Positions 18,357-19,927 of a stretch of 64,000 nucleotides of DNA are shown here, piece by piece. The stretch is from NCBI RefSeq assembly GCF_000473165.1, contig NZ_KI421504.1, positions 2,875,719-2,939,718 on the forward strand. The letters are read 5' to 3'. The stretch is from Leisingera aquimarina DSM 24565 (GTDB taxonomy: Bacteria; Pseudomonadota; Alphaproteobacteria; Rhodobacterales; Rhodobacteraceae). Made by a program: the position numbers and the translations under genes. Every line of letters begins with the position of its first letter. The first letter of the stretch is position 1. Below the pieces are notes generated by a model. It made no database searches. It had not been told where the DNA came from and was given only the letters and a program-made list of their open reading frames with translations.

Positions 18357-18383
18357 GGTTCACGCTTTTGCTATTATTGGAAA

Positions 18384-18411
18384 GGGCTGCCTGCTGGGCG
18401 GCCCTTTTTTT
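18384..18411 (+). terminator. Intrinsic terminator of rplM-rpsI
   Basis: GGGCTGCC (18384-18391) pairs with GGCGGCCC (18397-18404), followed by seven T. Confidence 0.93.
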
Positions 18412-18503
18412 GGTACTGGAGCAGGTGACTGATCAGCACCGTTAACATTTTCGCAAAAGTAACGTAACATGGCCGGCACCGCTTTCTGTTGGGGGGAGCT
18501 GCA

Positions 18504-18872
18504 ATGCCGCAAACCATCTATGAGAAATACGGCGGGTTCAGTGCCATCAGCCGGGTCGTGATGACCTTTTATGAGATGGCGCTCGATTCCGATCAGATCG
18601 GTGATTACTTTGCCGAGGTGGATATGGCGCGGCTGATCGACCACCAGACCAAGTTCATTTCCTCGCTTTTGGGCGGGCCTGCCTCATTCAGCGACGAGCG
18701 GCTGGAGACGGTGCACCGGGCCTTAGCAATAACCCATGATGACTTTGACGAAATGGGCGCGCTGCTGAAAGACGCGCTGGAGCAGCACGGGTTGTCCGAA
18801 CCGGATGTCCGGGCCACGCTTGCCGCAATCGAATCAAAGCGCAACGTCATCGTCCACCGGGACGCCGCATGA
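18504..18872 (+). CDS. Group 1 truncated haemoglobin
   Basis: A 122-residue 2-over-2 globin. Aligned by eye to mycobacterial trHbN, the proximal haem ligand is His71 (VHRALAIT), B10 is Tyr24 (TFY) and E11 is Gln48 (DHQTKF); LLGGP follows the E helix. Tyr B10 and Gln E11 are typical of oxygen-stabilising or NO-reacting members. The ATG follows GGGGGGAGCTGCA. The stop overlaps the start of the cyclase gene as ATGA, so the two products are made together. This suggests the globin is the gas-sensing partner of the cyclase, which is an inference. Confidence 0.85.
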   Translation: MPQTIYEKYGGFSAISRVVMTFYEMALDSDQIGDYFAEVDMARLIDHQTKFISSLLGGPASFSDERLETVHRALAITHDDFDEMGALLKDALEQHGLSEPDVRATLAAIESKRNVIVHRDAA

Positions 18873-19927
18873 GCATTGCCGCCATCAACGAGCAGCTGCT
18901 GCGCGCTGTTGGCGTCGGGATCGCCGTTGTCCGCGCCTCTGATCTTGGATTTGTCTTTCACAATCAACTTTTTGCGGAGTGGTTTGGCACGCCTGGCCCG
19001 GACGCGGCGCTTACGGATGCCATCGAAGGCTTGCAGCCGGACGACCTCGGCCCGCTGTGCGACGAAGGGCTGCGCTATTCGGCGGAGCTGAAGATCAAGC
19101 GCAAGCGGCGCACACTGGTTTTCGCCATCAATATTTCGCAGGCCAGCCATCTGAACGAGGCGCTTCTGGTGGTGGAATGCCAGAACATCACCCGGATCCG
19201 CGAGCTGGAAAGCATGATTGACAGCTATTCTGCCATGGTGGAGCGCAACACCCGCGAGCTGGAACGTGAAAAGGAGCGGGTGGAGCGGTTGTTGCTGAAC
19301 CTGATGCCGCGTTCGGTCTATGAGGAATTCAAGACCTTCGGCGTGGTGACCCCGCAGCTTTACCCCAAGGTCTCGGTGGTGATGCTGGACTTTGTGAATT
19401 TCACCGATTTCGCGTCCCGCACAGACCCGACTGTGACCCTGGGTGAGCTGAACGATATTTTCACGGCCTTTGACCGCATCGTCGAACAATACGGCTGCGA
19501 GCGGATCAAGACCATTGGCGATGCCTATCTAGCGGTTTCCGGAATGCCAGAACCGGCGCCCGACCACGCCACTGCGGTGGCCCATTGCGCTACCCGCTTC
19601 CTTCGGTATCTGGACCGGCGCAACCAGAGCCATCAGCATAAATGGCAGGCGCGCATCGGTCTGGGAACCGGCTCTGCTGTCGGCTCGGTGGTGGGCATTC
19701 AGAAGTATGTCTATGATGTCTTCGGCCCGGCGGTGAATCTGGCTTCCCGCCTGCAAGTCTTCGCCAATCCAATGAAAATCGTCGCCCCGGATGAAATGAA
19801 GGAAGCCCTCTCCGAAGAATTCCGCGTCACCGATATTGGCCTCGAGGATATCAAAGGCATCGGCGAGGTGCATCTGGTCAATGTCGGTGATGAACTGGGT
19901 GCCCGGCAACCCAGCGGACGGTTCTAG
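18869..19927 (+). CDS. Class III nucleotidyl cyclase with PAS-like and coiled-coil domains
   Basis: A 352-residue soluble protein. Residues 10-110 resemble a PAS fold, 112-160 form a charged coiled coil ending in the cyclase transducer segment LLLNLMPRSVYEEF, and 167-345 form the catalytic domain. Metal ligands are Asp174 and Asp218 (TIGDAY). Lys214 and Asp283 are the pair that selects adenine, and Asn290 and Arg294 complete the site, so cAMP is the expected product. It has no membrane segment and no built-in globin, but its gene overlaps a truncated haemoglobin gene by four bases. Confidence 0.88.
   Translation: MSIAAINEQLLRAVGVGIAVVRASDLGFVFHNQLFAEWFGTPGPDAALTDAIEGLQPDDLGPLCDEGLRYSAELKIKRKRRTLVFAINISQASHLNEALLVVECQNITRIRELESMIDSYSAMVERNTRELEREKERVERLLLNLMPRSVYEEFKTFGVVTPQLYPKVSVVMLDFVNFTDFASRTDPTVTLGELNDIFTAFDRIVEQYGCERIKTIGDAYLAVSGMPEPAPDHATAVAHCATRFLRYLDRRNQSHQHKWQARIGLGTGSAVGSVVGIQKYVYDVFGPAVNLASRLQVFANPMKIVAPDEMKEALSEEFRVTDIGLEDIKGIGEVHLVNVGDELGARQPSGRF

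Follow-up and report, generated by a model that had tools for sequence, protein, structure and literature searches.

Is the truncated haemoglobin whose gene overlaps that of a class III adenylate cyclase the sensor of this enzyme, or are the two proteins only made together? The question is raised by a gene pair of Leisingera aquimarina DSM 24565, which is located in a stretch of 64,000 nucleotides on contig NZ_KI421504.1 (positions 2,875,719 to 2,939,718; the window). Truncated haemoglobins are common and have mostly been discussed as O2 or NO enzymes. The comparative analysis presented here suggests that in some Alphaproteobacteria such a haemoglobin is a detachable gas or redox sensor of a predicted cAMP-making enzyme.

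The gene pair and its two products

The features of the locus are listed in window coordinates, each with its strand and the evidence for it.

18379..18409, +: hairpin 3' of rpsI, probable terminator setting the pair apart from rplM-rpsI (RNA fold -22.1 kcal/mol, z -4.8)
18442..18470, +: promoter-like site TTAACA-17-TAACAT (consensus match only, 9/12)
18491..18498, +: purine-rich stretch GGGGGGAG, possible ribosome-binding site of the globin gene (read from the sequence)
18504..18872, +: group 1 truncated haemoglobin gene, 122 aa, putative sensor subunit (PF01152 at 61.5 bits, cut-off 21; PDB relatives)
18639..18656, +: E-helix codons D46-H47-Q48-T49-K50-F51, with H47 = E10 and Q48 = E11 (alignments)
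18714..18716, +: codon of H71, the predicted proximal haem ligand F8 (invariant in 81/81; alignment to HbN)
18869..18872, +: ATGA overlap of the globin stop with the cyclase start (read from the sequence; gap -4 in 69/81 pairs)
18869..19927, +: gene of the PAS / signalling helix / class III cyclase protein, 352 aa (PF00211 at 141 bits, cut-off 21.9; structure model)
18869..19186, +: PAS domain, residues 1-106 (PAS_8 in 21/24 members at E 0.01; model and Foldseek)
19187..19348, +: signalling helix and transducer, residues 107-160 (95% mean identity over 106-160; C-terminal end of HNOBA)
19349..19888, +: class III catalytic domain, residues 161-340 (Pfam, structure match, six catalytic residues)

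The overlap of the two genes, already claimed in the earlier note, holds in its coordinates and in both reading frames. Upstream of the pair are two genes that we take, from their translations, to be rplM and rpsI, and a convergent tetR-type gene is located downstream. The hairpin behind rpsI, which is absent from the list of a terminator scan, and the single promoter-like site 5' of the pair (mean of 0.0 in shuffled sequences) make the pair look like its own transcription unit.

The closest solved chains in a PDB comparison are group 1 truncated haemoglobins, and by sequence similarity the window globin is a member of this group (TrHbN). The test for a protoglobin-type protein gave a Protoglobin score of 13.8 bits, below the cut-off of 25, and NCBIfam returned no globin match. 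Alignment to HbN of Mycobacterium tuberculosis assigned Y23, L44, Q48 and H71, which we take to be Tyr B10, Leu E7, Gln E11 and the proximal His F8, and thereby confirmed the proximal His71, Tyr B10 and Gln E11 of the earlier note. Haem binding by the globin and its coordination are what we infer for this protein. The window genome harbors one second PF01152 globin (L001, C1:367426-367779), which shares Asp-His-Gln in the alignment of the E helix, yet reaches only 24 bits against the profile of the cyclase-linked globins; a His at E10 alone is therefore no marker of the family. PMC4319818 concerns a group II roseobacter globin, distinct from the window globin.

The cyclase is one of 17 PF00211 matches in the window genome, and NCBIfam returned no cyclase match over its cut-off. 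All six catalytic residues are present, namely the Asp pair for metal binding (D174, D218), the Lys and Asp that select adenine (K214, D283) and the Asn and Arg of the transition state (N290, R294), and they predict a class III adenylate cyclase with cAMP as product. K214 and D283 occupy the positions at which the C2 domains of mammalian adenylyl cyclases carry their Lys and Asp, in line with the earlier prediction of cAMP from these two residues. An AlphaFold model of the cyclase built from 44 rows (pLDDT 78.2, pTM 0.52) had a bacterial adenylyl cyclase as its top match, and human soluble guanylate cyclase appeared from the third rank onwards, with about 300-390 alignment columns. The matches to soluble guanylate cyclase span model residues 11-345, but with 261-274 residues aligned their rmsd is 13-19, so that the two agree in domain order and not in orientation.

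A PAS-like N-terminus had been proposed before, and the model of residues 1-112 (pLDDT 83.3) indeed has PAS/LOV domains as its fold matches in Foldseek; the 50 matches listed for this PAS model alone do not include soluble guanylate cyclase. The following helix is the most conserved part of the cyclase: mean identity to the window copy over 80 loci is 95% for residues 106-160, compared with 80% for residues 161-340, 62% for the PAS part and 66% for the globin. The C-terminal end of HNOBA was found here in 24/24 members at E 0.01, and in the window cyclase this profile scores 19.9 bits with the whole protein and 21.7 bits with residues 1-160, under its cut-off of 23.4 and with its last quarter only. 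HNOB, the H-NOX haem domain, had no match at E 1 in either the globin or the cyclase protein.

The PAS domain might itself be the true sensor, to which the globin delivers haem, O2 or NO, or for which it scavenges them. The PAS model does match the haem-PAS sensors DosP, EcDOS and FixL among many PAS folds, but none of the His or Cys residues of the PAS part that might bind haem is kept throughout the 128 cyclase rows (H31 in 70, C104 in 107). The globin is for this reason the likelier haem carrier on the sequences compared, and we regard a sensing PAS domain served by the globin as very improbable.

Linkage of the globin and cyclase genes

A scan of genome contigs retrieved 151 relatives of the cyclase. 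The best 80 of these 151, with 57-95% cyclase identity, all have a globin gene directly upstream on the same strand (80/80), and paired loci occur in Leisingera, Ruegeria, Tritonibacter, Roseibium, Stappia, Hoeflea, Nitratireductor, a Sneathiellales bin and others. The 80 loci and the window copy make 81 pairs; 69 of them have a gap of -4 (ATGA), and the rest lie between -11 and +9, the start positions having been extrapolated from the alignment. Among 385 genomes of Alphaproteobacteria, a sample that includes the window genome, 17 harbor the N-terminal half of the cyclase, and a globin adjoins it in 17/17; L092 and L094, which belong to these 17, each have one TAA in the N-terminal frame of the cyclase, by assembly error or decay. 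A sample of 299 genomes of the phylum contained three matches, of which two were already counted and the third is also paired, and none outside Alphaproteobacteria. PLSDB holds a single record, pLA3 of Novosphingobium pentaromativorans, with an annotated group 1 truncated haemoglobin beside the cyclase (1/1).

The neighborhood of the pair varies with the lineage. The Leisingera/Ruegeria group has tetR, ppk2, metA and partly rplM-rpsI as neighbors, whereas these window neighbors are absent at L057, L059, L060, L062-L066, L068, L069, L071, L073-L079 and L082, and some Hyphomicrobiales have genes for an abhydrolase and a UbiE-like methyltransferase upstream. The flanks of eight distant loci contain no constant third partner (10 ORFs, 6 loci scanned). 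The linkage counts and the persistence of the pair among different neighbors document that the pairing is not chance. A conserved gene pair across Rhodobacteraceae, the first check that had been proposed for this locus, was thus found at every locus inspected from the cyclase side (80/80 of the best 80 of 151, and 17/17), also beyond the family.

The view from the globin is less uniform. Its profile has 60 matches in the same 385 genomes, 30 loci of which were read; 18 matches reach at least 108 bits, the next one 85, and 16 of the 18 are the paired globins. Close relatives, defined by at least 96 bits in the class sample and in three order-level searches, number 51 (18 + 4 + 5 + 24), leaving out two fragments: G027, which scores 74.5 bits and adjoins a cyclase interrupted by a stop, and G660, which scores 83.5 bits. 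A cyclase adjoins 43 of these 51 (16 + 0 + 5 + 22), so that the claim of genes staying together is true of every cyclase locus examined but not absolute for the globin. The remaining eight have no intact cyclase alongside: three are without partner (L116, L131, L164), four precede a PAS-like ORF, and one, L157 (1180-1900), has a remnant: its intact globin is followed by only the C-terminal end of a cyclase, a decaying pair. With a globin match in 23 of the 244 genomes of the home order, the pair is an accessory module.

Globin and cyclase are separate proteins, as was stated from the outset: the window has two ORFs, and no globin-cyclase fusion occurs among the pairs read. Two candidates for a fusion were rejected, L136 (globin in a 486-aa ORF) because the genes are separate and L102 (494-aa frame) because the frame counts a TGA read through. 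The partial correlation of distances gave a co-variation of 0.40 for globin and cyclase and of 0.52 for globin and metA, and thus does not favor the partner.

The E helix of linked globins and the variants of the partner

The alignments comprise 101 rows of cyclase-linked globins and 128 rows of cyclases, each joined from two collections in which the same species may occur twice. H71, G10-G11, G57-G58 and Y23 are kept in all 101 globin rows, and so is H47, a His at E10 that directly precedes Gln E11. This His is missing from all 11 less related group 1 globins compared (Met 5, Lys 5, Ser 1); they are 11 of the 41 matches below 85 bits, with the fragment G027 set apart. The E10 column holds His in two cyanobacterial globins and Lys in Chlamydomonas THB1. 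The distal residue of THB1 is LysE10 (PMC7082302), and GlbN with its distal His and THB1 with its distal Lys ligand are described as coupling the loss of this ligand to a conformational change (PMC11904497); a residue at E10 is accordingly able to ligate the iron and to be released in concert with such a change (PMC11904497, PMC7082302), and His or Lys at E10 has been flagged as a possible sixth ligand (PMC4720485). The location of His E10 where cyanobacterial GlbN holds its distal haem ligand makes a ligand-displacement switch at His47 of the linked globins plausible. What speaks against it is that group 1 globins commonly have Lys at E10 and that a potential E10 ligand is not always bound: the Met E10 of a Shewanella globin is a potential ligand, yet the ferrous form is five-coordinate (PMC11904497).

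Further residues of the helix distinguish the linked globins. Thr49 is present in 99 and Lys50 in 100 of the 101 rows, and both positions are occupied by other residues in the genus with PAS-like partners only, in L116 and in the 11 less related globins. Asp46 is found in 101/101 rows and also in L116, but neither in the PAS-only genus nor in the 11 others. The Novosphingobium globin has Gln at 50, the globin of L164 has Glu-Ser-Lys at 46, 49 and 50, and that of L157, whose cyclase has just been lost, still has the full motif. The outward face of the E helix (Asp46, Thr49, Lys50) may accordingly be a docking surface.

All six catalytic residues are intact in 122 of 128 cyclase rows; Arg for K214 is the sole change in two (L171, L172), and the row of L180 is broken. 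N290 and R294 are lost in the other three, from two lineages, and are replaced by Ile and Gln in L165, by Ser and Ser in L158 and by Ser and Ala in L159, the latter two also with Arg at 214. A histidine kinase gene is located directly downstream on the same strand at all three loci, as seen for L158 and L159 in their wider regions L186 and L187.

The main rival to a sensor subunit is co-expression without contact. The globin would then be an NO dioxygenase or another O2/NO enzyme like HbN of M. tuberculosis, with which it shares Tyr B10, Leu E7 and Gln E11, and the cyclase would answer another signal via its PAS domain. A translational overlap can by itself hold two genes together, and the partnerless copies L116, L131 and L164 also speak for this alternative. 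It is less apt to explain a globin at all 97 cyclase loci (best 80 of 151, plus 17), E-helix residues specific to linked globins, and a globin that is kept beside a cyclase without its transition-state residues. We therefore consider co-expression without contact unlikely, though it deserves to be taken seriously.

The loci with lost residues bear on a second alternative, namely that the cyclase domain is mainly an adaptor, that the globin-PAS core usually acts on a histidine kinase whose gene lies elsewhere, and that cAMP is secondary. The three cyclases without N290 and R294, each followed by a kinase gene, would fit, but two of these three cases come from one genus. A query with the L165 kinase found no directly downstream match at the other loci with 1.5-4 kb of flank, although unrelated kinases would escape it. 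In wider regions, a kinase of the L165 type was found upstream of the pair in L167, L174 and L184, while L171 and L175 have weak matches downstream, at a distance of 4-5 kb. A related kinase with its regulator is thus present near the pair in other lineages, yet within about 6 kb in only 3 of 19 distant pair regions (L167, L174, L184), while the search among the neighbors of the window pair and its near relatives revealed no kinase, nor did the L165 query match there. PAS-like partners without cyclase also occur, but the catalytic residues are intact in nearly all rows, and a kinase as the usual target appears improbable.

Partners without a catalytic domain were found in one genus (L118, L132, L133, L135), where the globin is followed by a PAS-like ORF of 146-168 aa, again with the -4 overlap in two of the four loci. 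The label is based on position, overlap and pattern; homology to the PAS part of the cyclase is weak (hhalign probability 9%, E 0.0036), and PAS_8 was matched at E 0.08 in 1/4. The stretches L188, L189, L190 and L191 from the order of G310 contain a globin followed by a conserved PAS-like ORF of 146-168 aa, with no cyclase or recognised kinase within the stretch.

Loss of catalysis, or absence of the catalytic domain, leaves the globin and the PAS/helix part in place, which argues that the two would form the sensor core. A bolder reading is a portable haem-sensor subunit, in which a truncated haemoglobin with a His-E10 ligand switch uses its E-helix face (Asp46, Thr49, Lys50) to dock on an adaptor of PAS domain and signalling helix, and in which the output was swapped in evolution among cAMP synthesis, a histidine kinase reached via a dead cyclase, and a PAS-only adaptor. 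The kinase variant is known from two lineages and the PAS-like variant from one genus. We consider the bolder reading possible but doubtful.

On pLA3 of N. pentaromativorans (L165, 1-5990) the pair is part of a six-gene row of two NAD(P)/FAD oxidoreductases, the globin, the cyclase without N290/R294, a hybrid histidine kinase and a response regulator. L164 (L194, 6687-13953) is a second, partnerless globin copy beside a convergent gene whose product is an AAA ATPase / hydrolase protein of 1762 aa, and the two Novosphingobium oxidoreductases have homologues there with 47-48% identity.

A proposed split haem sensor and its known counterparts

The reading that we favor with some confidence is a two-protein haem sensor that controls cAMP synthesis by contact between the two proteins, with the displacement of His47 as its switch. 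The globin would be the sensory subunit, a chain of its own, and would set the activity of the class III adenylate cyclase, a predicted homodimer, by docking on its PAS / signalling-helix part. Its resting haem iron would probably be bound by His71 (F8) and His47 (E10). O2, held by Tyr23 and Gln48, or else NO, CO or a redox change of the iron, would displace His47 and shift the E helix, and the conserved helix would carry the change to the catalytic dimer, raising or lowering cAMP. What the sequences show are the two proteins with their residues, the gene overlap and the conserved linkage, whereas physical contact, ligand and sign of the effect are inferred. With Tyr B10 and Gln E11, O2 is expected to be bound firmly, and O2 or redox state would hence have a slight edge over NO as the signal under everyday conditions. 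The relation of the two residues to O2 binding may be compared in PMC4720485.

This reading draws on the linkage counts, the persistence of the pair with other neighbors, the intact catalytic residues and the His E10, Thr49 and Lys50 specific to linked globins, and also on the order of PAS, helix and catalytic domain as in soluble guanylate cyclase. The lack of any fusion, the eight of 51 close globins without an intact cyclase, the higher co-variation of distances for metA than for the cyclase and the PAS domain, which could carry a ligand of its own, weigh against it. A split sensor and enzyme with cAMP as product, the central proposal of the earlier note, is still the best reading of the sequences, but His E10 adds an option by redox change or ligand displacement that had not been considered.

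Stand-alone haem proteins encoded beside their partner enzymes (H-NOX) and globins joined to an enzyme in one chain (globin-coupled sensors, HemAC) are already known. The stand-alone bacterial H-NOX proteins, with an adjacent histidine kinase or diguanylate cyclase/phosphodiesterase, are a close parallel of a separate small haem protein encoded beside an enzyme, and the gene adjoins that of the enzyme regulated (PMC8738867); the haem fold of the present pair is instead a globin, and its regulation is a prediction. Soluble guanylate cyclase (H-NOX, PAS, coiled coil, catalytic domain) has PAS, helix and catalytic parts in the same order. Its haem input works by way of PAS and helix: on NO binding the H-NOX and PAS domains turn, and the coiled coil becomes straight (PMC6839917). 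Unlike it, the cyclase of the pair has no haem domain in its chain and is predicted to use ATP rather than GTP and to be a homodimer; by analogy, the globin would replace the H-NOX domain as a separate protein.

The control of a signalling enzyme by a globin, predicted here, is also the principle of globin-coupled sensors and of HemAC from Leishmania. The globin of HemAC is reportedly a 3/3 globin within the chain of the enzyme. HemAC figures as an adenylate cyclase that senses O2 in PMC12755159, and globin-coupled sensors have a 3/3 globin in the same chain as the output (PMC7082302), whereas the globin of the pair is separate and of the 2/2 type. GlbN of Synechocystis and Synechococcus likewise belongs to the group 1 truncated haemoglobins and has His at E10, but it has Gln at E7, where the linked globins mostly have Leu. 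We know of no linkage of GlbN to a cyclase.

Group 1 truncated haemoglobin domains were also observed within CheA-type kinases (L119 964-3357, L122 2-1471, L128 1-2382, L129 1033-3354). Three of the four have the order Hpt, globin, dimerisation, HATPase and CheW, and the kinase of L122 runs off the stretch past the dimerisation domain; E10 is Met in all four. A search of the open-access literature found no description of globin domains in CheA-type kinases. Nor did full-text searches of an open-access library yield a description of the globin-cyclase pair.

If the proposal is true, a truncated haemoglobin would act as a subunit in signalling, its partner named and its output accessible to measurement, and class III cyclases would gain a haem input from outside their own chain. 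The gene pair, kept across many families, would then represent a natural two-part counterpart of the layout of soluble guanylate cyclase.
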